A stretch of 64,000 nt of DNA from Roseovarius gaetbuli (GTDB lineage Bacteria > Pseudomonadota > Alphaproteobacteria > Rhodobacterales > Rhodobacteraceae), in assembly GCF_900172365.1 (NCBI RefSeq), contig NZ_FWFJ01000020.1:1-64000 (forward strand), written 5' to 3'. The notes below the pieces were generated by a model. The model saw only the letters and a program-made list of their open reading frames with translations. It did not search any database and was not told where the DNA came from. The first letter of the stretch is position 1; every line of letters starts with the position of its first letter. The translations under genes were made by a program, and so were the position numbers. Below are positions 1-16,818 of this stretch, piece after piece.

Positions 1-107
1 AGGTTCTCGGCGCTCTCGCCCTTCGGCTCATAGTACAGATTTGACCGCGCCAATGTCAGCAACGCACATTGGCGGCGAACGCTTAGCTTATGGTTTCCGC
101 TCACCAT
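1..107 (-). CDS. IS3-family transposase OrfB, N-terminal part
   Basis: The ATG at 107 opens a frame shifted -1 from OrfA and overlapping its stop. The translation starts MVSGNHKLSVRRQ and continues through SNLYYEP, the typical beginning of an IS3 OrfB upstream of the DDE integrase core. The gene runs off the window, so the catalytic residues are not visible. It is probably translated mostly as an OrfAB fusion through the A6 slippery run. Confidence 0.75.
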   Translation of the reverse strand, partial: MVSGNHKLSVRRQCALLTLARSNLYYEPKGESAEN

Positions 108-409
108 TTTTTGCCTCGCGTCCCGAGCAACTGTTGCGAGGCATCTGCCAAAAAATCCCGTTCCACCACAAGCTGGCCTATCTTGGAATGCAGCTTGTCG
201 ACTTCAGCCGAGCTTACCTGTTCCGGGGCTGCACCTCGGCGCGTGAATGCCGTTGCCATGTTCTCTATCGCCGCGCGTTTCCACGTGCCAATCTGAGTTG
301 GATGAACGCTGTATTTCTTCGACAGCGCCGCCAACGTCATCTCCTCGCGGATCGCCTCAAGCGCAACACGGGCTTTGAATTCGGGTGAATGGTTTTTGCG
401 TTTCTTCAT
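101..409 (-). CDS. IS3-family transposase OrfA
   Basis: A 102-residue protein with the helix-turn-helix pattern of IS3/IS911-type OrfA. It starts MKKRKNHSPEFKARVALEA, has a recognition-helix region LAALSKKYSVHPTQIGTWK, and ends with a leucine-zipper-like stretch (VDKLHSKIGQLVVERDFL) that dimerises the transposase. It ends in AAA AAA TGG TGA, overlapping orfB. The protein looks intact. Confidence 0.85.
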   Translation of the reverse strand: MKKRKNHSPEFKARVALEAIREEMTLAALSKKYSVHPTQIGTWKRAAIENMATAFTRRGAAPEQVSSAEVDKLHSKIGQLVVERDFLADASQQLLGTRGKKW

Positions 410-441
410 ACCGGATCACTTCTTTCGTCATGCGATCCACC

Positions 442-2196
442 TTAACAACTGATCCGAAATTTCGCGACCACCTCTTTCTTTGCCCGGAACTTTGGCCGCG
501 TACCATCGACATAAGGACAGCCAAGGTCGCTTATCTTGGCCGCCTTGGGGCCCACGCCCGACACATCCAGCCGCTTCGACACGCGGGTGCTCGACAGGAT
601 GTCAAACAGCTTGTCCGCGCCCTCGGGGTCCGAGGGCTGAATGACGGGAACGGTGTCATCGGCCTTGCGCGGCAGAAAGGCCCGGTTGAAGCGCGAATAC
701 TGCGCGAGGAAACCCTGTACCTTGTACGCCGCCTGCGCCGCCGCATCCGCGTCCGGGCCAGGCTCGGCCGGTTTGAAGGCGCTAATATCGGTGATCGGCA
801 AGACACCCATCGCGTTGCCGCCCAACCGCACCGTCGGCAGGACACCACGCGCGGCAATCGTGCCGGCCATCACCTCTATGAATTCATCCTCGGTGACACC
901 GGCCACCTGGCTATAGCCGTCAAGCGCGCTGTCAAGCAGCGCCGGCCCGATCACCCGCAGCATCGCCCTGGCATCTTCAAACCCGGTATCGGCCCCATTG
1001 ACCGCCCAGCGCAGATCGGCCTTGGGGATGTCAAACGCCTCGGCCAAAAGATCGGCGGCATAGGTTTTGCCCGCGCTGTAATCGCCCTGTTCGATGGCCG
1101 TTGCACGCTTGGTAAATCCCTCAAGATCGGCCTCGGGACGGTTGAGGTATGACAATGCATCGGGCGAGTTATTGGTGGCGCTGTCTTGCGGGATCGCCGA
1201 AAATTCGCCGCTCGCCACATGACTGTTAAGCAGGGCCGCAAGCTCGTCTTGGGATTGGCCACCGCTTAGCCCGACGGCGATGATCCAATCCGCGGACCTG
1301 GCAAGCTTGATCGTATCGGGGTCGCTTATCTTGATCCCCATGCCGTGTTCTATCGCGGTTTCGAAATCGACCAGCCATCCGCCCGGATCGGCCGCCTCGG
1401 GGGTATAGGACACCACGCTGGCGGCGCTTGCGGTGTTGCGCGGTATCGTCTTGCCCACTGCCAGCCGCTCGACCCGGCCCTTGATCACCGCGTAAAGCGC
1501 CACCTTGCCGGGCAGCGCCGCGATGCGCCCAAGGCGGCGCTGGTACTGCGCGTCGCCCTTGTCTTCCCCCGACCGCATCAGGTGAACCGCGCGATACGCC
1601 CCGACCGCGCCTGCAAAATGCTGCCAGTGCGCAGAGACCCCGGCGTCGGACATATCCCACCAGGGCTTGCCGCCGATTTCACTCTCAAAGAGTTTCCTGG
1701 CCTCGGCTTCCTCCTGGGTCGCGGGGGCCACGCCCTCTTCGGCAAAACTCTCGTCAGGATACCACCGCAGCCAAAGCTCTTCGACCTCGGTTGATTTCCG
1801 CGGGACAAAGCGATGCGCGGTTTTGGCCTTTGCCATGACCTTTGCCATCTCGGCGGCAGCCTTTTCGCGGGCTTTCAAGGACTTCAGACCGCGCATTTTG
1901 TCAAACGGCTTTACCGCCGCCCGAAGCGCCGATGTGTCCTTGATCAAAACCGGCTCGTTGACCTGCATGAACCGATATTCAATCGACAGCGGCAAGAGCG
2001 CCAGCGGCGGGGCTTTTTGCCTGATCTCCTCGGGCGCCTTGCCGTCGGTGTCCGCCTTGATATCCGCGATCACCTTGCCGTCAGGCAGCCGGATTGCGCC
2101 GCTTACATCCTTGAAGCGACGGCCGGTAATGCGCCCGCGCTCGGCGTCTTTCATCGCCGCGAAATCACGCCCCGGTTTCTTTGGTCCGCGTCCCAT
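442..2196 (-). pseudogene. Large uncharacterised protein, 3' end cut by IS3 element
   Basis: Last of three co-directional giant genes. The ATG at 2196 overlaps the upstream TGA (ATGA), which decides the start. About 575 native residues remain; the frame then enters the insertion sequence and stops at 442 after a foreign tail. No signal peptide, membrane span or catalytic motif is evident. An N-terminal block LLPLSIEYRFMQ followed by ELWLRWYPDES resembles, from memory, an 'LPVRLETRF...LRIYPD' signature in very large proteins encoded beside DUF6603 genes. A charged Ala/Lys-rich stretch lies near residues 100-125. The function is unknown, and the protein would need the two upstream gene products if they form a complex. 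Confidence 0.6.
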
Positions 2197-4808
2197 CAGA
2201 GCACCCTCTTGAGCGGCAGAACACCCGCCACAGGTTTTTGCCAGAACGCCCGCGCCATCGAGGCCGATGTTCTGGACGCCCCAAGATGGTTGGGCGAAAG
2301 CGGCACGGATTTGCCCTCGGCCACGTTGATATACCCCGACCCGAGCAGCACCCGATGCGCCCATGAAAGCTCGTCCCAGCCCTGAATCTGGCTGAGCGGT
2401 GGCGCGACATCCGCTCCCAGTGTCCGTTGGCGCCCTTCAAACGGCAGTTGCGGGCGGTACGGGCGATCCGGCAGGCCCTTCATCTTGAACCCATAGGTCA
2501 TTACCGCCTCGTCGCGCCGGGCCTGGCGCACCGCAAGCGACCCTACGTCCAGACCAAAGCGCAAGCGCCCGGCCGGCTCGTAGATCACGAAGAAAACCCG
2601 GTCTTTGATTGTTGGGTCCAGCACCTCTTGGCGCGAAATCTCAAAGCCGTAGTAGCTTGTATCGCCGCCGATCTTGCCGACAAAAGCCGGGGCAAGGTCG
2701 CGGCCCTCGCCAACTTTGAAGCCATCCCCGTCCTCGGCAATATTGATCGCCAGAACCGGATCGCCAAGCTTGCGCACGATATCGCCACGGATCACCACGA
2801 TCAGGTTCTCCTTGGCATTTTCCGCCCCGGCGGGCACGTTGCCGCCAAGCTTGGCCTGCCACTCGTGGATCGGCGCGATGTCGTCGCCCTTGGGGTCGCC
2901 CTGCGGGTGGCCCCGGTCCCAGAACCGCTTGAAGAGGGTGCCGCGCATATCGGTGGGAAATTCCCGCCAGCGCAATTCCCGGTTCATCTCGTGGTTCATC
3001 CCCAACAGAAAGGCCTCGACGAAGGGGCGGTTTTCCTCGACCACGGCGACCGAATTATCCGGCAGGTTTTGCGCCCCGGCAAACAGCGCGGTCTGGCTTA
3101 CCTTTTGCAAAAGCCCGCTCATCGGATAGGCAATTTCGGGCGCGCGCCACACCGGCCTGACGAAATTGCGCTCTTCCTCGGTCAGGCCCCGCACGCTGAC
3201 AAAGGATTTAAAGACCGGCAGTCGCGCCAGCACATTTGCCACCGGTGCCACCAGATCGGCGCTCGAAAAGCTGCGCACGGCAAGTGTTGGCACCTCTGCA
3301 TCCTTGAGGCCCTCGAACATTTCCAGGTTGAAGATCGGCCTTAGCATTTCGCCGATTTCCGGCGACAGCTTGCCCTTGAACTCCGGGTCTCCTTGCGCCT
3401 TCGCCTTCGCCGTCACCTTCGCCTTTGTCACATCCTTTGAGGGGCCGGGCCGCCGCAGGGCGCCCGAGATGTCGCCAAGCGGGCTTGGCATCGGCACCAA
3501 ATTCTGCGCCTCGGGCCCGCGCGCCGACAGCGCCATGCTGCGCTTGGCCGAGACATGGCGCAGGCTGCGTGCGCTCGTGCTGAGCGGCACGCCGTTTTCG
3601 GCCAACCGCTGTGACAGACTTGTGCCCTTCACAACCTCGACCGCGCTATGCAGCCCTTGCGACAAAGCCAGCGACACATCACTTGGCAGCCGTTGAAAAT
3701 GGCGTCTGGTCAATGCCTCGGCCATCTTTTGCGCCGCCTGCAAGCGCGCCAGCTTTTCGTTGGCCTCGACGATCTCGTCGTATTGCGTCCAGGCCAGATG
3801 GGCGAACATTTCCTGATTGCACTTGACCACCTTTGCCCCAAGCCCCGCCACATGACGGAACTTGAGATCAAGGTTGATCTGGTCAAACCATGCGCGCGCC
3901 TTGGCGTCGGCATATGAAATCCCGGTCTCGGGCTTGTAGCGAAACCCATAGGGCGGAAAGGTCACAAGCGGGTCTTCGTCGCTGTTCTTGGTCTGGCTTG
4001 CGCCGATCATCACCTCGGTGAGGGTGTCGATCATCGGCGCGATCAGATCCTTTGGCGTGTCAATCTCGGGCGGGTCTTGCCGCGGCACCTGCATGGCCGA
4101 CTGGCGGGCAAACTTTGCGCCGGGAAAGGTCATGTCATGGTAACCGGGCGTCTCTGCCGACACGCCGATATCGCCGATCACCTCTTCGAGGTCCTCAAGG
4201 TCGAGCGCCTTGAGGCGGCGCAAGAGCAGTTCCACATCCTCTTGCGCATCCGTGGTGAACCGCCAATCAAAGTAGCTCAGCAGATCAACCGGCCCCGACG
4301 CCAATCCCCAGGCAAAGGCATCATAGGGCGCGGCGGTGCCGGTCTGTCCAAGACCGGTCAGGCGGCCGGCCTCATAGACCGGCACCAGAAAGGCGTAATA
4401 ACTTGTCGCCGACTTTAGCTTGCGCAGGCACATGATCCGCGCAAGATTGCCGTCGGCGTCGCTCTCAAGCACGGCCTGGGCGTTTTGCGCGGCGGTGCCG
4501 GTGTCCAGAGTAAACCGCCAGGGAAAATCGGCATCGCCAAACTCGATCATGGGAAAGTAATTCGGTTCAAACCCGCGCAGTCCGGGGCGCGGCTCGACCC
4601 GCGAAATCGCGCTGCGGTCGATTGCCTGAACGTCGCCCGGCCCGCGTAACGCAGAGCTGACGGGCACGCGCGCGCCCTGTGCCTGCCCGGCCTTTTCGAT
4701 GCCAAATTCATAGGTCAGTTTCAGGCGCGCCTCGCCCGGCGCAGGCGCCGTTGCGAGGGCGGCCATGCCCGATTGCGCGTGGGGCAGAAAGGTAAATCTC
4801 TCCGGCAT
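2196..4808 (-). CDS. Large uncharacterised protein of the DUF6603 locus
   Basis: An 870-residue protein with no frameshift, the only unbroken member of this locus. The ATG at 4808 is chosen because GGGGAGAGAG lies just upstream; it is 13 bases after the stop of the DUF6603 gene. No transmembrane segment or signal peptide is evident. Recognisable blocks are EPRPGLRGFEPNYFPMIEF followed by DFPW near residues 75-100, and an ARIMCLRKLKS...YAFLVPVYEAGRLTGLG block. I recall both from large hypothetical proteins that accompany DUF6603 proteins. In those relatives I recall a longer segment between the two blocks, so this copy may carry an internal deletion. The function is unknown. Confidence 0.6.
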   Translation of the reverse strand: MPERFTFLPHAQSGMAALATAPAPGEARLKLTYEFGIEKAGQAQGARVPVSSALRGPGDVQAIDRSAISRVEPRPGLRGFEPNYFPMIEFGDADFPWRFTLDTGTAAQNAQAVLESDADGNLARIMCLRKLKSATSYYAFLVPVYEAGRLTGLGQTGTAAPYDAFAWGLASGPVDLLSYFDWRFTTDAQEDVELLLRRLKALDLEDLEEVIGDIGVSAETPGYHDMTFPGAKFARQSAMQVPRQDPPEIDTPKDLIAPMIDTLTEVMIGASQTKNSDEDPLVTFPPYGFRYKPETGISYADAKARAWFDQINLDLKFRHVAGLGAKVVKCNQEMFAHLAWTQYDEIVEANEKLARLQAAQKMAEALTRRHFQRLPSDVSLALSQGLHSAVEVVKGTSLSQRLAENGVPLSTSARSLRHVSAKRSMALSARGPEAQNLVPMPSPLGDISGALRRPGPSKDVTKAKVTAKAKAQGDPEFKGKLSPEIGEMLRPIFNLEMFEGLKDAEVPTLAVRSFSSADLVAPVANVLARLPVFKSFVSVRGLTEEERNFVRPVWRAPEIAYPMSGLLQKVSQTALFAGAQNLPDNSVAVVEENRPFVEAFLLGMNHEMNRELRWREFPTDMRGTLFKRFWDRGHPQGDPKGDDIAPIHEWQAKLGGNVPAGAENAKENLIVVIRGDIVRKLGDPVLAINIAEDGDGFKVGEGRDLAPAFVGKIGGDTSYYGFEISRQEVLDPTIKDRVFFVIYEPAGRLRFGLDVGSLAVRQARRDEAVMTYGFKMKGLPDRPYRPQLPFEGRQRTLGADVAPPLSQIQGWDELSWAHRVLLGSGYINVAEGKSVPLSPNHLGASRTSASMARAFWQKPVAGVLPLKRVL

Positions 4809-4821
4809 GAAACTCTCTCCC

Positions 4822-7800
4822 CTACAAGCGGCCAGCGGCAAAAATGTAATCGGTGATGACCGGGTTCACCTCGTGCAGGGTGTCCATCACGCGCGGCTGA
4901 TCCGATCCCTGCGCAAGGTTCAAAGCCGCCGCAAAGGAGCCGACGCCGATCTCGGCCACCAGGAAATCATCGCGAATATCCAGCACGTTCCCCTGCCCGA
5001 CCGGCCCCGGTTGATGGGCATCAAAGAACGGTCCGATATCGTCAAACGCCGCCTCGGCCACGAACACATCGCCAACCGGTGTCGGCGCCGGGGTGGGCGA
5101 CACGAAGAGCAGGTCCACCCGCTCCACCTCTGCGCGAAGTTCCATCTCGCGGGCATTGAAGCGGCCGACGATCTCTGCGACCACGCCAGCGGCCCGGGGC
5201 GACAAGACCCCGGCATCAATCGGCGGCGCATCGGTGGCCACGGGGATTTCGACGTATTCGTATTCATAGGCGCTTTCGATGACCTTGGTGGTGGCCCCGA
5301 TCAGCCCCGGACCGGCGATTTCAACCCCGGCCTTGAGGCTGTCAAACGCCGTCGCGCGCAGCCGTTCGGCATCTGTCAGGTTAAAGAAATGCCCGTGCAC
5401 AAAGCTCTGATCGACCGGCGAGGCGGCCACGCTTTGGCCCGCCGCATCGAACACCGCAAGGTCAAGTCGGGCCGTCCCGCCGGCAATCTGCCCTTCGCCG
5501 ACCTTCTGAATGCTCACGTCAAGCGGCACTGCCGTTTGCACCAGACGCGCGCCGCCAAGCGGATCAATCAGGGTCTCGCCGTCTTGCGGCGCCGCAAAAC
5601 TTACCCCGCCCGAGCGATTGATGGCCGCGACCGGTTCAAATCCGCGCGCCTTTTCAAAGGCCTGCCGCAACAGCGCCACCGGATCGGCCGAGGGCACGGG
5701 CAGGCTTTGGCGTGATCCCCAGCGATGGGTGATCGAAAACTTGACCTTCTTGCGCAGGACCGTGGCCCAGACCTTGCCGGAAATGTAAAAGGTATTCGGC
5801 CCCTGAAGGCGCAGATCAAAGCCAAGGCTCATCACGCTGTTGCCGTTGCGCAAAAGGCTAAGGCCGCCGCCCAGGGCCACATCAAACGCGAAGGGATCAA
5901 AGTAGACCAGCGCATCGAGATAGATGTAGCCCTCTGCCGCCAACTGTCCGATCAGCCACAGATCGGGCCCGCGTGCATAAAGGTCGGCGCGCGCCCCGAA
6001 TTGCAGCGAATTCGAGGTGATCGCGGTGTACCCCGAGATCGTGATGCAGGGGTTTTTGGTTCCGAACGCCAGCGTGATCGCGCGCAGATCAGGCAGGTTT
6101 GACGGCTTGGGATAGGCCGGATGCAACCCGCCGAACGAGGCCACATGCTCCAGCCTCGGGGCCCAACCGGTGCGGATCGCCGCATCGCCCGAAAGCGTAT
6201 AGGTCAGAATCCGCGAATTCAGCAGCGTGGCGTCAAAACTTATTGTGCGGGCGCTGAAATCAATCTCGCCGAAGAAGGTGATGCTGATCTCTACAATCGC
6301 CGCCTGCTTGGTCGGCAACGCAACCCCAAGCCCGCCGAGGATGATGATCCGCACCTCTTGCCCGACCTCAAGGATCAGGCCAAGCTTGATATCAACCAGC
6401 ACCGGCTGTCCCCAGCCGACCTTGACCACCGGGCCAATGATGTGCTGCCCGCTTTGGGGCGGCATCACGGCCGCCATACCCTCAAGGATCGAGGCCGCAT
6501 TCGCAATCGGGTCGGACGGAAAGATCAGATTGTCGAGCCGCCCCTCGTAGAGCACGCTGCGCAGGGCGTCACTGTCGATGGTGCGGTTGATGCCGATCAA
6601 ACCGCCCACGCCGGTCAGGAAAAACCCGAACGACAGCGGCACGTTGAATTCACCAAAGATCGAGGCGGCAAAGCTAAAGCTGCCCGGCGCGTCCGCCAGA
6701 TCCGTGTTGAGGATCGCAAAGGCGGAAAAGCCGAAAGTCTGGAACTTCAACGCCAGAGCGCCGCGATATTCGCTGTCGTCGATCGACAGGAACCCGCCGC
6801 CGGTGATCACATCGCTTTGCAGCGCAAGCGCACAACCCGACGGCGGCACAAAGCCAAACTTCAGGTCTGTCTTGCCAAATATCCCATCCGCATCCGGCGC
6901 CTCGATCAAGGACACCGACACGCCGATATCCTCGGCATAGGCAAAAAGCGGGCCGATGGTCAGATCGCCGGTCGTGGTCAGCTTCACCGTCATCGGATCG
7001 TCAAACTCAAGCTCGACGCCGAAATTATAAATGGTGACCGTCCCAAGGCTAAGCTCGACGGGAATGACGATCCCGAGGTTCGAGCCGCCCTCGAAGTAAA
7101 CCCCTCTGCCGGGGCGCCATCCAAGCGCCAGATCGCCGGCGTTGATCTCAAGCGGGCCGCTCAGAACCCCGCCAAGCAAGCCGTCATCCGAGGGGTCGAT
7201 CACCATCGTAAGCTGGCTCAGCCCGGCGGCGAGATAGCCGTCGAACTCCTGCGCGGTTGACGCCGATCCGCCGGCCTTGACGCTGACCTGATCAATCTGG
7301 ATACGGGTGCCGTTGGCCGCGCCGATCAGCACGATCTTGTCTTGCCCCTCGGGCGGTGACACCGTCAGTTCCGCGCCAAACGCGCCCTCAATCCCAAGCG
7401 CGCCCTGCCCGCCGAACAGGCTGATGGTCTGGCTCAGATTGCCGACGGAATAGGACCCGAGCGCAAGCCCCCCCGGTCGGCGCGCGGTCGCTGCGCCCCG
7501 GCGCCCGAAACCGGAAACAGCGCCGCGCCAAATTCGGCCACGGCATTATTGCTCGCGAGGGCCGCAACCGGGGCCACGATCATCGTCGGGCTTTCATTGT
7601 CATCCGCAGCACCCGGCAGGAAATGCTGGACCTCAACATCGCTCATCCGCTCAAGCCGTGTCAGGCTTGCGATGGTTTCAAGCACCGCGCCAAGCCGGAC
7701 AAGCGCCGTGCCGCTGTCAAAATCAACGCCCCAACCATAGACCTCGCGGCCCCAGCCCTGGGGATCGCGAAACAGCTGCCCAAGCCGATCCCAGTTGTAA

Positions 7801-8380
7801 ATGCTGTAGTGATAGATCGCGCCGCGCCAGCGTGGGTTGTGTCGTCAAGCACCGACACGGTGTCATGGACGCCCCGAAATTGCAGCCCCCGCAGCGCCGT
7901 ATCGGCCCGGCGCCGCAGATAATCGGTCAGCAAAGCCGCCAGCACATCGCTCGGCAATTTGCCGAGGTTCTCGGCCTTTTTGGGCAAGCCCGCCAGATCC
8001 TGAATAGAGCTGAAGGCGTCGCCGAAATCATCCAGATTGGTAAAGCTGCTTTGCGCAAGGGCAAGCACTGCGCCCACGTCGATGTAGTCCACGCCGCCCT
8101 GCGAGACATACGTTTCGACCTGCTAGATGAGATCACCCACCGCCGCCGCCAGCGGCCCAAGGCTATTGACCGCGCCGGTAAGCACCCTGGCATCTATCGC
8201 ATAGCCAAACCGCAACAGATACCGTTCAAGCGCCTCTTCATCGCGAATTGCGGCGCTTAACGGCGACAGAAAGATCGCCAGTTCCGATAGAACGGTTTTC
8301 ACAAAATCCGACACGGGCTCCAACCTGTCAGCAATAAACCTGCTGCTTTTGGAAAATGCGTCAAAGGAAGTATATCCCAA
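4822..8380 (-). pseudogene. DUF6603-like protein, interrupted by amber codon and two frameshifts
   Basis: First and largest gene of the three-gene locus, about 1180 residues if repaired. The C-terminal 846 residues (7362-4822) are open. They hold a long beta-rich repeat region with blocks such as GVGGLIGINRT, GPVVKVGWGQP, GGLGVALPT and LQFGARADLY, which match my memory of DUF6603. Upstream, a stretch with the FRDPQGWGREVYGWG motif is in another frame. The breaks are an in-frame TAG at 8125-8123, a frameshift near 7830, and a one-base loss in the C7 run at 7468-7474. The 5' end is uncertain: 8380 is a possible TTG start and the frame is open to about 8446. It ends with TAG 13 bases before the next gene. 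Confidence 0.65.
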
Positions 8381-8664: not shown

Positions 8665-10311
8665 TTAAGCGGCACCAGCCTGTGCAAGATCGCGCGCCTG
8701 CTCGCGCAAAACGAACTTTTGTATCTTTCCGGTCGAGGTGCGCGGGATCGGCATGAACACGAACTTGCCCGGCACCTTGTAGGGCGCAAGCTGATCCCGG
8801 CACCACGCCTTGAGCGCGTCGGCGTCGGCCTCTTGACCCTCGGCAAGCTCGACAAAGGCACAGGGCGTTTCGCCCCATTTCTCGTGCGGCATGGCCACGA
8901 CGGCGGTGACACCGACCGCCGGGTGCCGATAAAGTGCCTCTTCAACCTCGATCGAAGAGATGTTTTCGCCGCCCGAAATGATCACATCCTTGGACCGGTC
9001 CTTGAGCTGAATATACCCATCGGGGTGGATAACGCCAAGATCGCCGGAATGAAACCAGCCCCCCTCAAAGGCCTCCTGGGTGGACTTGGGATTGCGGAAA
9101 TACCCCTTCATCACCACGTTGCCGCGAAACATCACCTCGCCCATGGTCTTGCCGTCACGCGGCACCGGGATCATGGTTTCGGGGTCGATAACATCAAGGC
9201 ATTCAAGCGCAAGATAGCGCACGCCCTGCCGCGATTTCAGCGCGGCCTGTTGCGCCGGGGCCAGATCGGACCAACCTGCATGCCAGTCGTTCACCACCGC
9301 CGGGCCATAGGTTTCCGTCAGGCCATAAAGATGGGTCACGTCAAAGCCAGCGGTCTTCATATCCGCGAGGAGTTTCTCCGGCGGCGGTGCGGCGGCGGTA
9401 AAGAACTGCACGGTGCGATCAAGGTCACGCTTGAGCGCAGCGGGCGCCGAGATCATCAGCGACATCACGATGGGCGCGCCGCAAAGATGGGTAACGCCTT
9501 CGTCCGCCAATGCATTCCAGATCGGCTCGGCGCGGACCTGGCGCAGGCAGACATGGGTGCCGATGATCGCCGACATCGTCCAGGGAAAACACCAGCCGTT
9601 GCAGTGAAACATCGGCAGGGTCCAGAGATACACCGCATGTTTCGCCATCGAGGTGGTCAGCGCATTGCCCTGCGCCAAAAGGTATGCGCCGCGATGATGC
9701 GAGACCACGCCCTTGGGGTCGCCCGTTGTGCCAGAGGTGTAGTTGATCGAAATCGCGTCCCATTCGTCTTCGGGCATAAGCCAGGCGAAATCGGCATCGC
9801 CCCCCGAAAGGAACGCCTCGTAATCATGCGCCTCGACATGCACTTCTGGCCCGTCGAATTCGGCGTCATCATACTGGATCAGCATCGGATTGACCGAGGC
9901 AAGCGCAAGCGCCTCTTGCATCAAGGGCATGAATTCGCGATCCACGATCACGATCCGCGCGCGGGCGTGATCAAGTTGGAACGCGATGATCGAGGCATCC
10001 AGCCGGGTGTTGATCGAATGCAGAACGCCGCCGCACATCGGCACGCCGTAATGACATTCAAGCATCGCCGGCGTATTCGCCAGCAGCGCCGAAACCGTAT
10101 CACCCCGGCCAATACCGGCGGTTGCCAGCGCCGAGGCCAACTGTCGCGAGCGCGCGTAAAAATCGGCGTAATTGCGCCGCAGGCCCCCGTGCACGATCGC
10201 CGTGTGATCGGGAAACACACTGGCGGCGCGCTCCAAAAAAGTCAGCGGCGTCAGCGGTTGGTAATTCGCAGGGTTGCGATCAAGACCGGTGTTATAGGGG
10301 TTGGTTTCCAT
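8665..10311 (-). CDS. Acyl-CoA synthetase, AMP-forming, DmdB-like
   Basis: A 548-residue member of the ANL superfamily that activates a carboxylic acid to its CoA thioester through an acyl-adenylate. Visible motifs are the P-loop YTSGTTGDPKG, LYGLTETYGP, the hinge region GDLGVIHPDGYIQLKDRSKD, and the C-terminal catalytic lysine in PRTSTGKIQK. The start METNPYNTGLD at 10311 lies just after the upstream stop and is typical of this medium-chain subgroup. An in-frame ATG at 10323 is possible. Beside a crotonase and a DmdA-like gene, a role as 3-methylmercaptopropionate-CoA ligase (DmdB) is plausible but not proven. A fatty or aromatic acid is the alternative. Confidence 0.85.
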   Translation of the reverse strand: METNPYNTGLDRNPANYQPLTPLTFLERAASVFPDHTAIVHGGLRRNYADFYARSRQLASALATAGIGRGDTVSALLANTPAMLECHYGVPMCGGVLHSINTRLDASIIAFQLDHARARIVIVDREFMPLMQEALALASVNPMLIQYDDAEFDGPEVHVEAHDYEAFLSGGDADFAWLMPEDEWDAISINYTSGTTGDPKGVVSHHRGAYLLAQGNALTTSMAKHAVYLWTLPMFHCNGWCFPWTMSAIIGTHVCLRQVRAEPIWNALADEGVTHLCGAPIVMSLMISAPAALKRDLDRTVQFFTAAAPPPEKLLADMKTAGFDVTHLYGLTETYGPAVVNDWHAGWSDLAPAQQAALKSRQGVRYLALECLDVIDPETMIPVPRDGKTMGEVMFRGNVVMKGYFRNPKSTQEAFEGGWFHSGDLGVIHPDGYIQLKDRSKDVIISGGENISSIEVEEALYRHPAVGVTAVVAMPHEKWGETPCAFVELAEGQEADADALKAWCRDQLAPYKVPGKFVFMPIPRTSTGKIQKFVLREQARDLAQAGAA

Positions 10312-10315
10312 TGCG

Positions 10316-11116
10316 TCAGGCATCCTGCCATTGGGGGTCGCGTTTTTCGATGAAGGCGCCGATACCCTCTTGGGCATCAGCCGCAAGCATGTTGTTGACC
10401 ATCACGTCAGAGGCGTAATCATAGGCCTGCGACAAGGTCATCTCGCGTTGAGCATAATACGCGCGCTTGCCGGTGGCGAGGGTCATGCTTGATTTCGACG
10501 CGATCTTGCGGGCCATTTCCAGGGTGGCCGCTTGCAGGGCCTCGGGGGCCACCGCGTAATTGACAAGCCCGATCTCTGCCGCGCGATTGGCCGGGGTCAT
10601 GTCCCCGGTCAACAGCATCTCCATCGCGTGCTTGCCCGACACGTTGCGCGACAGGGCCACCATCGGGGTTGAGCAGAACAGACCGATGTGAACGCCCGGC
10701 GTGCTGAACTTTGCCGTGTCCGCCGCAATCGCCAGATCACAGCTTGCCACAAGCTGACAGCCGGCGGCGGTGGCAATGCCGGTAACTTCGGCGATGACGG
10801 GTTTGGGGCAATTCACGATCCCCTGCATGACGCCCGAACACATCGACATCACCATGCTGAAATAGGCGCGGCCACCATCGGCCCCTGCCCGACCAGCGGT
10901 CATTTCCTTAAGATCATGCCCCGCGCAAAAGGCCGGTCCGTTCGCGGCCAGAATGATGACGCGCACCGCCGGGTTGGTGCCAGCCTCGACAAAGGCCGCG
11001 CCAAGTTCGGCGAGCATCGCCTCGGACAAAGCATTGCGCCGCCCGACATCGTTGAGGGTCAGGCGCAGGATGCCGTCAGCGTCCAGGTCACGCAGCAGAA
11101 TATCGCTCTTTTGCAC
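10316..11116 (-). CDS. Enoyl-CoA hydratase/isomerase (crotonase family)
   Basis: A 266-residue crotonase-fold protein. The oxyanion-hole blocks AFCAGHDLKEM and GIATAAGCQLVASCDLAIA are present. It starts with GTG at 11116 after an AAAGGA box, and its stop lies 4 bases before the acyl-CoA ligase start, so the two are co-transcribed. It should hydrate, isomerise or hydrolyse the enoyl-CoA made from the ligase product. In DMSP demethylation the comparable step is hydration of methylthioacryloyl-CoA (DmdD), but the sequence alone does not separate this from ordinary beta-oxidation. Confidence 0.85.
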   Translation of the reverse strand: MQKSDILLRDLDADGILRLTLNDVGRRNALSEAMLAELGAAFVEAGTNPAVRVIILAANGPAFCAGHDLKEMTAGRAGADGGRAYFSMVMSMCSGVMQGIVNCPKPVIAEVTGIATAAGCQLVASCDLAIAADTAKFSTPGVHIGLFCSTPMVALSRNVSGKHAMEMLLTGDMTPANRAAEIGLVNYAVAPEALQAATLEMARKIASKSSMTLATGKRAYYAQREMTLSQAYDYASDVMVNNMLAADAQEGIGAFIEKRDPQWQDA

Positions 11117-11136
11117 GGGTCAGATCCTTTTATCGT

Positions 11137-11586
11137 CTAGAAAATGTTGATTTCGACGCTGTCTGCAAGCGTGTTGGCGATAAAGCAATAGCGATGCGCA
11201 CGGTCCTGCATTTCGGCCAGTTTCGCGTCGTCCACCGAGAACCCGGTATCAAAACGCACCACCGGGTGCAGGTCGATGCGCGTCACCGACATCTGGCCGC
11301 GGGCGTTCTTGCCAAGATGCGCCACGGCATAATCGTGATAGCTTGCCACTGGCCAGTCGGCCTTGGCGGCCAAGGCCAGAAACGTCATCATGTGACAGCT
11401 CGACAAGGCCGACGCGAGGGCCTGTTCGGGGTTGGTGTTGGCGGGATCACCGCCCCAATCCGGGGCGGCGTCCACTTGGACATCATAGCTGCTGTTGTAC
11501 TGAACCGTATGTGCGTTCGAGTATTTGGCGGTCTGCAATACGGGCTCAGCGCGCTGCCAGTGCAGCTCGATCGAAAGGTCGGACAT
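11137..11586 (-). CDS. OsmC family protein
   Basis: A 149-residue protein with the OsmC/Ohr fold. It carries the conserved Cys-containing block LASALSSCHMMTFLALAAKAD, which includes a redox-active cysteine, in a cytoplasmic protein without a signal peptide. The family includes peroxidases for organic hydroperoxides and proteins of unknown substrate. The second Ohr cysteine is not in the standard VCPY context, so this is an OsmC-like rather than a canonical Ohr protein. It sits between the crotonase and the DmdA-like gene. A role in handling reactive sulfur or oxidative by-products is possible but unproven. Confidence 0.85.
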   Translation of the reverse strand: MSDLSIELHWQRAEPVLQTAKYSNAHTVQYNSSYDVQVDAAPDWGGDPANTNPEQALASALSSCHMMTFLALAAKADWPVASYHDYAVAHLGKNARGQMSVTRIDLHPVVRFDTGFSVDDAKLAEMQDRAHRYCFIANTLADSVEINIF

Positions 11587-11615
11587 TTTTCAGGTCTCTT
11601 TACTGGCCGTGGCGC

Positions 11616-12812
11616 TTATGCAGCGGCGATTGACTTTTTGGGATCATAGAACGGACGCTCCACGATGACGGCATTTTCCGTACCGGCTTCGTTCACGACA
11701 CCGGACCTGTTCACGACTTTCACCCGCGCACCCAGATTGGCATGCTCTGTCGCGACCATCGCCAGCGCAATGTTCTGCTCCAGACGCGGCGAATAGACCG
11801 CAGAGGTGACTTTGCCGATCACCACACCATTCTTTTCAATGCGCCAGTAAGAGGTGTTCGGGCCTTTCAGCGGCTCACCTTCGATAATCACCCCAACCTG
11901 TTTGCGGCTCACGCCCTCTTCCTTGATGCGGCGCAGCGCCGCCTTGCCGATGAAATCAGCCTCCATGTCGAGGTTCACCAGCCGGTCAAGCCCAAGCTCA
12001 AAGGGGTTGGTGCTGCTGTCTGCATCCGCGTGATACGACAGCATGCCGCCCTCGATGCGACGAATGGATGATGTGTGGCCGGGCTGAAGGCCGAACGGAG
12101 CGCCCGCCGCCATGATCTTTTCCCAAAGCTCGTCGCCGCGCGACCCATCCTGCAGGTAGAGCTCATAGCCCAGCTCGCTTGACCAGCCGGTACGCGACGC
12201 GATCAGCGGGATGCCGTCAAGCTCAAGCTCGCGCAGCCAGTAGTACTTGAGGCTCATGATGTCGTCGCCAAACAGCGCCCTCATGATCTCGCCCGACTTC
12301 GGCCCCTGCAATTGCAGCGGCGACACGTCCGGCTCACAGATCGTGACATCCATCCCGGCATGCACGGCAATGCCCTGCGCCCAGAGGAGGATGTCGCTGT
12401 CGGCCAGCGAAATCCAGAAGTGGTTTTCAGCAAGGCGCAGCAGGATCGGGTCATTCAGAAGCCCGCCATCGGCATTGGTGATCAGGACGTATTTGCACTG
12501 GCCAACCGCCATGGTCGAGAGGTCACGACAGGTCAGCATCTGGGTGAATTTCGCGGCATCCGGTCCGGTGATCTCGACCTGGCGCTCAACACCCACATCG
12601 CACAGGATGGCGTCGTTCACGAGGTTCCAGAAGTTCTGTTCCGGATCGCCAAAGTCACGCGGGATATACATATGGTTATACACGGAAAAACCCTTTGCAC
12701 CCCAGCGAACGGTTGCGTCGAAATAGGGGGATTTGCGGATCTGTGTACCAAAGCCGAAATCTTCCGTTTGCAGGTCATCCAGTTGTGCTTGGAAGTCTTC
12801 TTCTTGTGTCAT
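11616..12812 (-). CDS. DmdA-like GcvT-family protein (possible DMSP demethylase)
   Basis: A 398-residue protein of the tetrahydrofolate-dependent aminomethyltransferase (GcvT) fold. The blocks KGFSVYNHMYIP, ERQVEITGPDA, CEPDVSPLQLQGP and RTGWSSELGYELYL align with what I recall of dimethylsulfoniopropionate demethylase DmdA, which moves the DMSP methyl group to tetrahydrofolate. It is longer than the roughly 365 residues of characterised DmdA because of an N-terminal extension of about 30 residues. It is first in a set with an OsmC protein, crotonase and acyl-CoA ligase, consistent with methylmercaptopropionate metabolism. Non-DmdA paralogues acting on other methylated osmolytes exist, so the substrate is uncertain. 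An Lrp-type regulator lies just upstream in the same direction. Confidence 0.7.
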   Translation of the reverse strand: MTQEEDFQAQLDDLQTEDFGFGTQIRKSPYFDATVRWGAKGFSVYNHMYIPRDFGDPEQNFWNLVNDAILCDVGVERQVEITGPDAAKFTQMLTCRDLSTMAVGQCKYVLITNADGGLLNDPILLRLAENHFWISLADSDILLWAQGIAVHAGMDVTICEPDVSPLQLQGPKSGEIMRALFGDDIMSLKYYWLRELELDGIPLIASRTGWSSELGYELYLQDGSRGDELWEKIMAAGAPFGLQPGHTSSIRRIEGGMLSYHADADSSTNPFELGLDRLVNLDMEADFIGKAALRRIKEEGVSRKQVGVIIEGEPLKGPNTSYWRIEKNGVVIGKVTSAVYSPRLEQNIALAMVATEHANLGARVKVVNRSGVVNEAGTENAVIVERPFYDPKKSIAAA

Positions 12813-13689: not shown

Positions 13690-13712
13690 CTTCAAATATC
13701 CATGAAATATGG
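13690..13712 (+). promoter_or_regulatory. Putative ArsR operator
   Basis: The AT-rich imperfect inverted repeat TTCAAATATcCATGAAATAT stands out in GC-rich surroundings and overlaps the start codon of the ArsR-ArsC fusion. It resembles the TTCAAAT-type palindromes bound by ArsR repressors. Binding here would block initiation, and arsenite would release it. The almost absent 5' leader is consistent with repression at the start site. Confidence 0.5.
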
Positions 13713-14554
13713 AATCCACTCTGATCACGCGCCTTGCAACCCTCAGCCACCCCAACCGGATGGCGGTGTTTCGTCTGTTGATGCGGCGTTGCCCGGATGA
13801 CCTGCCTGCCGGGGAAATCGCCAAGGCGCTGACGCTCAAGGCCAGCACCGCGTCGGTCTATCTCTCGGCCCTGACCCAGGCCGGGCTAATCAAACAGCGC
13901 CGGGAGGGCACGCGGCTTTTATACGGTGTCAATCTTGACGCGGCGCGCGAGGTCGTGGCTGACTTGTTCCTTGATTGCTGTCGCGGTCGGGCGGACCTTT
14001 GCCCGCCACAATTTTCCGGGCTTTTGCAGGGGATCGCGCCTGTGGCCGGTCCCCGCTTCACCGTGCTTTTCATCTGCACCGGCAACTCTGCCCGCTCGAT
14101 CATGGCCGAAACCATTCTGCGCGATAGGGCGGGCGCGCGTTTCACCGCGCTTTCGGCGGGCACCGCACCTCGCTCAGAGGTGCACCCGCTGGCGGTTGAG
14201 ACCCTCAAGGCGCAGGGCCATGATGTGACGCCGCTGCGCGCCAAGACCCTGGCCGAGTTTCAAACGCCGGAGGCGCCGAACATGGATTTCGTCTTTACCG
14301 TCTGTGACCGCGCCGCCAATGAGGACTGTCCAGCTTGGTCGGGTGCGCCGGTCTCGGGGCATTGGGGCATAGCCGACCCGGCAGGCGCGACCGGCACAGA
14401 GGCGCAACGGCGGCAGGCTTTTCAGCAGGCCTATGACGCGCTTTACGCGCACATCACCGCCTTTACCGCCTTGCCGCTCGACGATCTCGATCGCCGATCG
14501 CTTCAGCACCACGTCGACAGGATCGCCAAATTCAACGCGCAAGAGGATCACTAG
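13709..14554 (+). CDS. Fused ArsR repressor - ArsC arsenate reductase
   Basis: A single 281-residue protein. Residues 1-100 form an ArsR winged helix (LTLKASTASVYLSALTQAGLI) ending in a cysteine cluster, C90, C91 and C98, placed like the As(III) site of AfArsR. Residues 117-260 form a low-molecular-weight phosphatase-type arsenate reductase, with the CX5R loop CTGNSARS (C123-R129) and a later pair of cysteines in VCDRAANEDC for the thiol relay. It is first gene of the arsenic operon. The fusion couples arsenite sensing to arsenate reduction in one polypeptide and is known from some proteobacteria. The GAPDH gene starts 3 bases after its stop. Confidence 0.9.
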   Translation: MESTLITRLATLSHPNRMAVFRLLMRRCPDDLPAGEIAKALTLKASTASVYLSALTQAGLIKQRREGTRLLYGVNLDAAREVVADLFLDCCRGRADLCPPQFSGLLQGIAPVAGPRFTVLFICTGNSARSIMAETILRDRAGARFTALSAGTAPRSEVHPLAVETLKAQGHDVTPLRAKTLAEFQTPEAPNMDFVFTVCDRAANEDCPAWSGAPVSGHWGIADPAGATGTEAQRRQAFQQAYDALYAHITAFTALPLDDLDRRSLQHHVDRIAKFNAQEDH

Positions 14555-14557
14555 ACC

Positions 14558-15556
14558 ATGACCACATACGCCCTTAACGGCCTTGGCCGCGTCGGCAAAC
14601 TCGCCCTGCGCCCGCTTTTGGAGCGCGGCGCAAAGATCGCCTTTCTCAATGATGCGGCTGGTGATGCGGAGATGCATGCGCATCTGCTGGAATTTGATTC
14701 AGTTCACGGGCGCTGGCCCGCGGCCTTTGGCGCGGAGGAGGACGCGATCACCATTGACGGGCTACGCATCCCGGTGACCCGCACGCGTCGGCTTGAGGAG
14801 CTGCCGCTCGACGGTGTGGATGTGATGATCGACTGCACCGGCGCCTTCAAGACCGAGGCCGACCTTGCCCCCTATTTCGCGGCGGGCGTGAAAAAGGTCG
14901 TGGTCTCTGCCCCGGTCAAGGACGGGCCGACCGCAAATATCGTCTATGGCGTGAACGAGCACATCTATGATGCCGAGACCCACAGCATCGTGACTGCGGC
15001 CAGCTGCACCACCAACTGTCTTGCGCCGGTGGTCAAGGTTCTGCTCGAAGGGATCGGGATCAAACACGGCTCGATCACCACAATCCATGATGTGACCAAC
15101 ACCCAGACGATTGTCGACCGCCCGGCCAGGGACATGCGGCGCGCGCGCTCGGCCCTGACCAACCTGATCCCGACGACGACCGGCTCTGCGACGGCGATCA
15201 CGCTTATCTATCCCGAACTCAAGGGCAAGCTGAACGGTCATGCGGTGCGGGTGCCGCTGTTGAACGCCTCGATCACCGATTGCGTGTTCGAGATGGTGCG
15301 CGACACCACCGTGGAAGAGGTCAACGGCCTGTTCCAGGCGGCGGCGAGCGGCCCGTTGAAGGGCATCCTCGGCTACGAAACGCGGCCTCTGGTCTCGTCG
15401 GATTACACCAATGACACCCGCAGCGGGATCGTGGATGCGCTTTCAACCATGGTAGTGAACGGCACGCAGGTTAAACTCTATGTCTGGTATGACAACGAAT
15501 ATGGCTATGCCCATCGCCTGGTGGATGTGGCCCTGATGGTTGGCGCCCGGCTGTGA
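14558..15556 (+). CDS. ArsJ-associated glyceraldehyde-3-phosphate dehydrogenase
   Basis: A 332-residue type I GAPDH with an N-terminal NAD fold ([16 protein letters not shown]), the catalytic block [10 protein letters not shown] with Cys150, and the C-terminal [14 protein letters not shown] signature. Within an ars operon, and overlapping arsJ by 4 bases, it is most likely the enzyme that uses arsenate in place of phosphate to form the unstable 1-arseno-3-phosphoglycerate. ArsJ then exports that product, giving arsenate resistance. A glycolytic role is less likely from context. Confidence 0.9.
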
Positions 15557-16818
15557 CACGCGCGCCCGGGTTTGCCGCCTATATCGCCGTGACGGCCGCC
15601 TATTGGGCCTTCATGCTGACCGACGGTGCCTTGCGGATGCTGGTGCTCTTGCACTTTCACACGCTCGGGTTTTCGCCGGTGCAGCTTGCCTATCTGTTCG
15701 TGCTCTACGAGATCGCGGGCGTGGTGACCAACCTCTCGGCGGGCTGGATCGCGGCGCGCTTTGGGCTCACCACCACGCTTTACGCCGGACTCGGGCTTCA
15801 GGTCGTCGCGCTTCTGGCGCTTGCCCGGCTTGATCCCGCATGGGGCATCACCGCCTCTGTGGTCTTCGTGATGCTGGTGCAGGGGCTGTCGGGTGTGGCC
15901 AAGGATTTGGCCAAGATGAGCGCCAAGAGCGCGGTCAAACTTCTTGCGCCGCGCGACGACGCCGGGCTTTTTCGCTGGGTCGCGGTTCTGACCGGATCAA
16001 AGAATGCCGTCAAAGGCAGTGGCTTTCTCTTGGGCGCGGCGTTGCTCGCCGTCTTTGGCTTTGTGCCCTCGGTTCTGGCGATGGCGGCGCTCTTGTCCGT
16101 GATCCTTGGGGCGGTGGTGATGCGCATGCCCTCGGGTCTTCCGGTCGGGCGCAAGGATGCGAAATTCTCCGAGGTCCTCTCAAGGAACCGCAACATTAAC
16201 TGGCTGAGTGCGGCGCGGCTGTTTCTGTTTGGCGCGCGCGATGTGTGGTTCGTGGTCGGCATCCCGATCTATTTCTACGCCGTGCTCTCTGACGGAAGCG
16301 AGGCCGGCAACCGCGCGGCGTTTTTCATGATCGGCACCTTCATGGCGCTCTGGACGATCCTTTACGGCCTCATTCAGGGTTGGGCTCCGCGCATCCTGAG
16401 GGCGGCGTCGCGCACACCCTCCGATATCCTTGTGCAGGCGCGCCGGTGGCCCGCCCTCCTGACCATCGTGCCGGCGCTTCTTGGTGCACTGGTCTGGGGC
16501 GTGCCCGGCCCTTCCCCTCTCCTGACCCTGACGCTCAGTCTTGGGTTGCTGGTGTTCGGCGGTATCTTTGCGGTGAATTCCGCGCTGCATTCCTATCTCA
16601 TCCTGAGCTTTAGCGACGCGAGCCGGGTGACGATGGATGTCGGCTTTTATTATATGTCGAACGCGGCGGGGCGATTGCTCGGCACCGTCCTGTCGGGCGT
16701 CACCTATCAAATGGGCGGGCTTGCGTTGTGTTTGGCCACCGCCGCCCTCATGATCGCGCTAAGCTGGCTCGGCATGCTGCAACTCAGATCCGAAGACACC
16801 CAAGGAACGACCGCATGA
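15553..16818 (+). CDS. arsJ: Organoarsenical effux MFS transporter ArsJ
   Basis: A 421-residue major-facilitator protein with about 12 hydrophobic segments. It starts with GTG at 15553, overlapping the GAPDH stop. The block [21 protein letters not shown] and the following [12 protein letters not shown] match my memory of ArsJ. It exports 1-arseno-3-phosphoglycerate, which breaks down outside the cell to arsenate and 3-phosphoglycerate. Its TGA overlaps the acr3 ATG (ATGA), so translation is coupled. Confidence 0.9.

Follow-up and report, generated by a model that had tools for sequence, protein, structure and literature searches.

Tc toxins (PMC10847048, PMC7861908) have giant subunits that fold in the cytoplasm and a conserved carrier with a variable enzymatic payload, and nucleoside-triphosphate (NTP)-dependent conflict systems are described in sections of PMC7159879 as a MoxR-vWA or STAND core with variable effectors. 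The gene set reported here bears a likeness to both. It was analysed from bases 1-64000 of contig NZ_FWFJ01000020.1 of Roseovarius gaetbuli (the window, 64,000 nucleotides, labelled C52; a second contig of the same genome is labelled C78), where the original prediction, made from the letters of the DNA, had named a DUF6603 gene with two giant partners as a candidate undescribed system, a candidacy that conserved co-occurrence supports. The DUF6603 entry (PF20248), of which the product of gene A is a member, was returned by Pfam without function, partners or cargo. Four genes, A (encoding the DUF6603 protein), B, C and D, were shown to form a conserved, horizontally spread set, often accompanied by an upstream enzyme gene (E); the fourth core gene D, the often exchangeable upstream enzyme and the broken state of the R. 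gaetbuli copy were points absent from the original prediction.

For analysis of linkage, a species-genome collection was scanned with a single peptide pattern, which gave 357 stretches encoding relatives, and 78 distinct loci (L numbers below) were kept. A complete open reading frame (ORF) for A was found in 76/78 loci; B was present in 72 and lay on the same strand directly after A in 72/72 evaluable loci with a median ORF gap of 4.5 bases, and in the four loci lacking B the sequence stops 529-2,025 bases beyond A. C was inside 43/76 loci and in 20/20 searched genomes whose locus stopped short of it, and D was found in 44/44 genomes searched, always on the strand of B and 4.2-7.6 kb beyond it, the length of one C gene; the remaining loci already contained C or D, lay on short contigs or were left out, and the B, C and D profiles, like those of the second architecture described below, were built partly from loci that were later scanned. 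Among 72,556 plasmids, A was present on 13 (haloarchaea, Streptomyces, Nocardia, Rhizobium, Paraburkholderia, Gemmatirosa), B on the same 13, C on 12 of these (missing from Nocardia) and D on the same 13 and two others; of these two, that of Natrinema caseinilyticum gave a partial match and that of S. anthocyanicus holds an orphan D located behind copies of IS5. The recurrent co-occurrence of the three families, proposed beforehand as a check, was thus found in loci, genomes and plasmids. DUF6603 alone as the whole story was rejected, B being present wherever A could be followed. The first impression that the alphaproteobacterium G688 has no B, C or D was likewise rejected, all four members being kept in the permuted order B-C-D-x-x-A; this operon lies at L153:275-14888 and L150:11707-15273 and has extra genes of 1017 and 595 amino acids (aa).

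Distances and trees were calculated after rows L008, L062 and L011 (duplicates or part-loci) had been dropped. A, B and C co-evolve: Mantel r was 0.846 for A-B (83 loci), 0.831 for A-C (55) and 0.870 for B-C (55), with a shuffled maximum of 0.18. On the A tree (FastTree without bootstrap, long branches flagged) phylum labels changed 25 times (minimum 13; mean after shuffling 50.5), a count suggestive of some inter-phylum transfer, with errors in metagenome-assembled genomes, which may be contaminated, and long branches contributing to the count. That A-D are a linked gene set is near certain. Chance adjacency, or a run of unrelated housekeeping genes, is extremely improbable: it has only the absence of an assigned function in its favour and is opposed by the order conserved across phyla, the co-occurrence on plasmids and the co-evolution. 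Homology to housekeeping proteins, which had been named in advance as grounds for dropping the idea, was searched for in Pfam, NCBIfam, PHROGs and PDB sequences, and none was found.

Carriers of the set belong to Bacteroidota, Actinomycetota, Nitrospirota, Chloroflexota, Myxococcota, Acidobacteriota, Planctomycetota, Pseudomonadota, haloarchaea and others, so that it ranges from haloarchaea to Streptomyces, Nitrospira and Bacteroidota. DUF6603 is rare and patchily distributed: it was found in 3/36 genomes of the genus and 0/24 others of the class, in 9/398 genomes of a phylum sample and in 3/385 of a class sample, the R. gaetbuli genome counting among the hits in the genus, phylum and class samples. 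The third Roseovarius copy (G023) is probably a separate acquisition, since its A protein is only ~24% identical. A phage origin was rejected: neither the window protein nor alignment A1 found an A relative in viral contigs, and A was in none of 50,697 phage records; one 39-residue D-like match was obtained in viral contigs, at a contig end.

Of the nine DUF6603 genomes in the Pseudomonadota sample of 398, eight (two of one genus) carry a second architecture composed of a giant A' (1513-3390 aa as called), B', F (~300-345 aa) and G (~1250 aa). A', B' and F were present in 8/8 and G in 7/8, with B' and F sharing one ORF in L143; a ninth locus, L149, also holds A', B', F and G, which gives nine Pseudomonadota loci in total (L139-L146, L149). 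The B' profile matched B (HHalign 98.0%, E 1.5e-13, 197 columns) and 6/8 B' proteins were found directly with the B profile, and no homology of F or G to C or D was detected by HHalign; judged by these profiles, therefore, DUF6603 and B are the pair common to both architectures. The likeness of the partners to giant proteins next to DUF6603 genes in other phyla, as originally proposed, accordingly holds for B and fails for C and D in this architecture. The rule that every DUF6603 protein is accompanied by C and D was rejected, as among the 398 genomes only R. gaetbuli has D, apart from one weak match to the lamin-tail end in another genome (two candidates scored per genome).

The assignment of gene A to DUF6603 was borne out with E 6.8e-101 and 338.7 bits against a cut-off of 27, covering profile positions 2-501 of 502. 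A proteins are mostly 1100-1500 aa long across relatives; that of Algoriphagus has 2205 aa, with an N-terminal extension without Pfam match, and in the Nitrospira loci L030, L035, L042, L053 and L061 two DUF6603 genes of ~1100 aa each lie on one strand ahead of B. The A core contains ~33 amphipathic strands with mean face hydropathies of +2.28 and -0.79, a difference of 3.07 compared with 1.21 after shuffling. A structure model (predicted template modelling score, pTM, 0.50) resembles the sheets of porins, ushers, LptD and ApoB100, with matches at a root-mean-square deviation of 8-15 Å and poor overall superposition. Signal peptides were sought by a simple hydropathy window over the first 45 residues; A gave weak candidates only, in 7/90 proteins, and signal-like N-termini were found in 0/20 D, 0/86 B and 2/57 C proteins (weak).

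B proteins are mostly 830-1800 aa and C proteins mostly 1200-2300 aa long, with a D core of 430-600 aa. Pfam was run on A, B and C of the window, B, C and D of Paraburkholderia and of R. lutimaris, and C and D of Natrinema, together with 17 long variants (six of A, five each of B and C, one of D). No enzyme, transporter or phage motif had been seen from the letters alone; the B and C ORFs of the window matched no Pfam family at E<=1, and B, C and D gave no family match except repeat domains inserted in long variants; inserts in long variants of A-D proteins are FG-GAP, Kelch and a lamin-tail domain. R. lutimaris B is predicted to contain an immunoglobulin-like sandwich and helical regions; in a search for the fold of known tail proteins, B gave no match at E<=0.001 among viral structures and weak listings in a separate comparison. 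A hydrophobic-segment threshold was exceeded by 21/86 B proteins, strongly in 12 of the 15 listed; seven were inspected. The idea that A, B, C and D are homologous to one another was rejected (best probability 1.0).

Two alternatives bear on these properties. In the first, which we consider unlikely, A-D form a shell binding lipid or hydrophobic compounds, in which an ApoB/LptD-like A sheet wraps or moves lipid and E processes the cargo. The amphipathic strands of A, the presence of ApoB100, LptD and FimD among the structural matches of its pTM 0.50 model and the PLD, PhoD and GDSL lipase enzymes among E proteins agree with a shell, but many E proteins are proteases and the scanned A-D proteins have no lipid-transfer Pfam family. 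In the second, which is decidedly unlikely, A-D build a surface coat, a spore structure or an extracellular matrix served by an accessory enzyme, for which the very large proteins, the adhesion-type inserts of long variants and, on our reading of organism names, several carriers from filamentous or gliding groups can be cited; signal-like N-termini are nevertheless absent from D and B and few and weak on A and C, and all four subunits are kept while the enzyme varies.

In 71/87 loci an ORF running in the same direction stops close to the start of A, within -60 to +40 bases in 55/71, and E and A are separate ORFs in all 71. E ORFs were delimited automatically by their longest start; some are surely spurious (e.g. 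L021, L051), and a signal peptide behind a false early start would escape the hydropathy test. After 6/71 had been dropped, Pfam was run on 65/71 and gave PLD (10), PhoD (7), M64 peptidase (5), NAL1 C-terminal (5), Trypsin (4) and S8 (2), besides families seen once (tyrosinase, GDSL lipase, endonuclease/phosphatase, peptidoglycan-binding, others). E proteins were then typed by BLAST cluster. At least two HxKx4D/N motifs were found in 10/10 members of the PLD cluster, HExxH in 5/5 M64 proteins, GDSG in 12/14 members of the trypsin cluster (not in L064, which is subtilase-like by motif, nor in L086) and the motif pair in 7/8 members of the PhoD cluster (L005 lacking both PhoD motifs). Conserved 'HG' and 'GC.IG' blocks mark another cluster, of eight members; the blocks take the form 'HG..G' (one 'HA') with 'GC.IG/GC.LG' in L029, L033, L037, L041, L043, L052 and L068, and L071, which joins by BLAST, is a fragment. 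By our reading of the alignment, made without a profile call, this cluster looks caspase-like; it shares ~73 residues with the 'BactX' cluster (probability 85.5). A docking domain common to the six main E clusters was rejected; apart from this ~73-residue likeness, the clusters are unrelated in sequence. When 19/71 E ORFs (small clusters and singletons) had been left out, E type was found to change no fewer than 16 times along the A tree (52 rows and 6 types, with a minimum of 5) compared with a shuffled expectation of 32.9; by this count E types are seen as partly inherited and partly exchanged.

As a control, neighbours on the opposite strand were scanned (47 ORFs, 3/50 having been dropped); no recurring comparable enzyme family was found among the best 25 of 112 families, the rest having one member each. 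Genes further upstream (48/75 scanned) gave no family with more than four members among the best 25 of 70. Near two Streptomyces operons a DUF2235 gene and an RHS-repeat gene lie on the opposite strand (L019:10623-11882, L005:7189-10572); DUF2235, a Tle1-like phospholipase family, occurred once in the opposite-strand control set. That A-D form a system to which the upstream enzymes are mere operon neighbours without functional link is very unlikely. In favour of this reading, E is not adjacent to A in two Roseovarius genomes and no docking domain is shared; against it stand the tight E-A junctions (55/71), the negative opposite-strand control and the fact that these unrelated enzyme classes appear repeatedly across distant phyla.

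The E proteins also bear on an intracellular conflict system, anti-phage or suicidal, which is regarded as unlikely and in which A-D would sense infection or membrane damage and unleash E inside the cell. Exchangeable trypsin-like and caspase-like proteases act as effectors, or are associated with effectors, in such systems as covered in parts of PMC7159879; moreover, a signal-like N-terminus was found on only 1/71 E proteins (hydropathy test), the spread is patchy (3/36 genus genomes) and PADLOC calls a DrmC-like PLD in 9/65 E proteins. Set against this, the scanned A-D proteins have no NTPase, nucleotidyltransferase or nucleic-acid-binding Pfam family, long variants carry inserts of extracellular type (FG-GAP, Kelch, lamin tail) and no defence family recurs among the best 25 neighbour families of each list.

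The reading preferred here, tentatively and though less likely than not, is an assembly that is built in the cytoplasm, acts on membranes and carries or deploys E. Unlike the linkage, the mechanism is something we infer, namely one particle, A at the membrane, E as payload and another cell as target. A-D, made without signal peptides, would come together in the cytoplasm as a single particle of several subunits; A would supply a giant amphipathic antiparallel beta sheet inserting into or binding membrane or lipid, and B, C and D would form the body together with lineage-specific recognition inserts (FG-GAP/Kelch propellers, lamin-tail). E would be the payload, and a swap of E would change the activity of the particle. 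Its most likely use would be to attack a different cell or membrane once lysis has set it free, in a manner like that of Tc toxins or extracellular contractile systems, without detectable homology to either; the Roseovarius copy would have been lost by mutation and, probably, insertion of an insertion sequence (IS). The linkage of B after A, the spacing of D, the permuted but complete operon of G688 and the Mantel correlations were counted in favour of this reading; so were, for the payload, the varied enzymes with mostly kept motifs, the type changes, the tight junctions and the negative control, and further the amphipathic strands of A, the likeness of its model to porin, usher, LptD and ApoB100 sheets, the hydrophobic segments of B and the single signal-like N-terminus among 71 E proteins. 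The broader proposal, that DUF6603 operons are an undescribed class of protein-delivery particle in archaea and bacteria, with a four-subunit carrier, a membrane-inserting giant beta sheet, a modular payload at the operon head and at least two architectures (A-B-C-D and A'-B'-F-G), is more doubtful.

In the window, A, B and part of C were located, the rest of C and D lying at the start of C78 (Table 1). The three co-directional genes, the 13-base gap between A (stop at 4822) and B (start ~4808) and the ATGA-type overlap between B (stop at 2196) and C (start ~2199) that had been described were confirmed in the ORFs. The sizes given for them (~585, ~870 and ~1180 codons for C, B and A, with likely ATG starts for C and B and A read across breaks) are right as figures, but C is only the first third of a gene encoding 1507 aa in R. 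lutimaris and A is not open.

Table 1. Features of the DUF6603 locus of R. gaetbuli (window positions unless stated otherwise).
Feature	Position	Strand	Basis or remark
Gene A, DUF6603 protein, first third broken	4822..8323	-	ORF calls; start set by R. lutimaris comparison
DUF6603 domain (PF20248) within gene A	5368..7056	-	339.9 bits, stop-free
Gene B, ~870 aa	2196..4808	-	78% identity with R. lutimaris relative
Gene C 5' part, ~585 of ~1500 aa, cut at IS/contig end	442..2199	-	Comparison with R. lutimaris
IS orfA-like transposase ORF, HTH_Tnp_1 (PF01527)	101..409	-	Pfam E 4e-7; contig end where C is cut
Remainder of gene C and gene D	Contig C78 bases 168-4353, outside window		Frames also broken

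The first third of gene A has one in-frame stop and two frame breaks, so that the reading passes through three frames; the A ORF at 4822-7362 carries DUF6603, and the intact part is 89-90% identical to the R. lutimaris protein. Gene B is ~60 residues shorter than its R. lutimaris relative. Gene C halts at residue ~555 beside the IS ORF, resumes from residue 552 on C78 and loses its frame again near residue 1312-1348; the cut and the continuation indicate that an IS probably inserted in C. Gene D follows C and is split over two ORFs. Intact frames for the A-B-C-D set are not present in the R. gaetbuli genome and, with A, C and D broken, the locus is a decayed relic of a larger conserved unit. 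In R. lutimaris DSM 28463 (L020) the genes for E (908 aa), A (1195), B (929), C (1507) and D (436) lie in a row; operon DNA is 80-87% identical. The flanks of two Roseovarius relatives gave no match around the R. gaetbuli locus, which therefore seems to occupy another place in the genome. C78 holds an open gene 93% identical to that of the upstream enzyme of R. lutimaris (L138:8335-11061); it lies ~72 kb from D, far from the broken A-D, and its neighbours resemble genes upstream of R. lutimaris E. The product, on our reading, may unite a GDSL-lipase, a trypsin-like and an endonuclease/phosphatase part in a single chain.

Elsewhere in the window, an arsenic cluster on the plus strand (13709-16818) comprises an ArsR/arsenate-reductase-like fusion, an ArsJ-associated GAPDH (NF033735) and an ArsJ efflux protein (NF033734), the latter two matches exceeding the cut-off. 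Genes at 8665-12812 on the minus strand, for an acyl-CoA synthetase, an enoyl-CoA hydratase, an OsmC-like protein and a dimethylsulfoniopropionate (DMSP)-demethylase-like protein (372 bits, under the NF009133 cut-off of 410), possibly belong to a pathway for DMSP or methylated compounds.

In comparison with described systems, FG-GAP-type repeats in some long variants of A-D are a further likeness to Tc toxins, from which the set differs in that its payload would be encoded by a separate upstream gene and in its occurrence in haloarchaea. TcA, TcB/SpvB or RHS families, which we take to represent the Tc toxin subunit domains, were not found by Pfam in the scanned A-D proteins. No sheath, tube or baseplate family was detected by Pfam in the Paraburkholderia, R. 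lutimaris and Natrinema proteins scanned, and PHROGs gave stray matches only (E 0.064 and 0.24) for four Paraburkholderia proteins and R. lutimaris D. With NTP-dependent conflict systems, as far as parts of PMC7159879 describe them, the set shares exchangeable trypsin-like and caspase-like components and a patchy spread, whereas it consists of four giant conserved proteins, and no NTPase core (MoxR-vWA, STAND, GTPase) was found in the scanned A-D proteins; 'DUF6603' has no occurrence in the main text of that paper. Unlike in polymorphic toxins, no toxin domain is fused to a trafficking protein, E and A being separate in the 71 loci, with the Algoriphagus A extension as a possible exception. 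The long consecutive antiparallel amphipathic strands of A recall outer-membrane beta barrels, FimD, LptD and ApoB100, but A has no clear signal peptide, is found in archaea and actinobacteria and superposes poorly overall. 'DUF6603' and 'PF20248' occur in no paper of open PubMed Central, a search covering neither subscription papers nor preprints, and wider literature searches returned no paper on a described system with these parts. Four giant proteins without recognised relative, three of them co-evolving, occur together across more than 10 phyla and two domains, frequently alongside interchangeable hydrolases, and point to a whole functional system currently annotated as 'hypothetical protein'; with open A, B, C and D frames in the cultured environmental bacteria Roseovarius lutimaris and Nannocystis exedens, its role is directly testable. 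Should it serve in delivery, it would extend the range of such devices, which includes Tc toxins and contractile injection systems, by a new kind; should it serve in defence, it would do so with no known sensor family.
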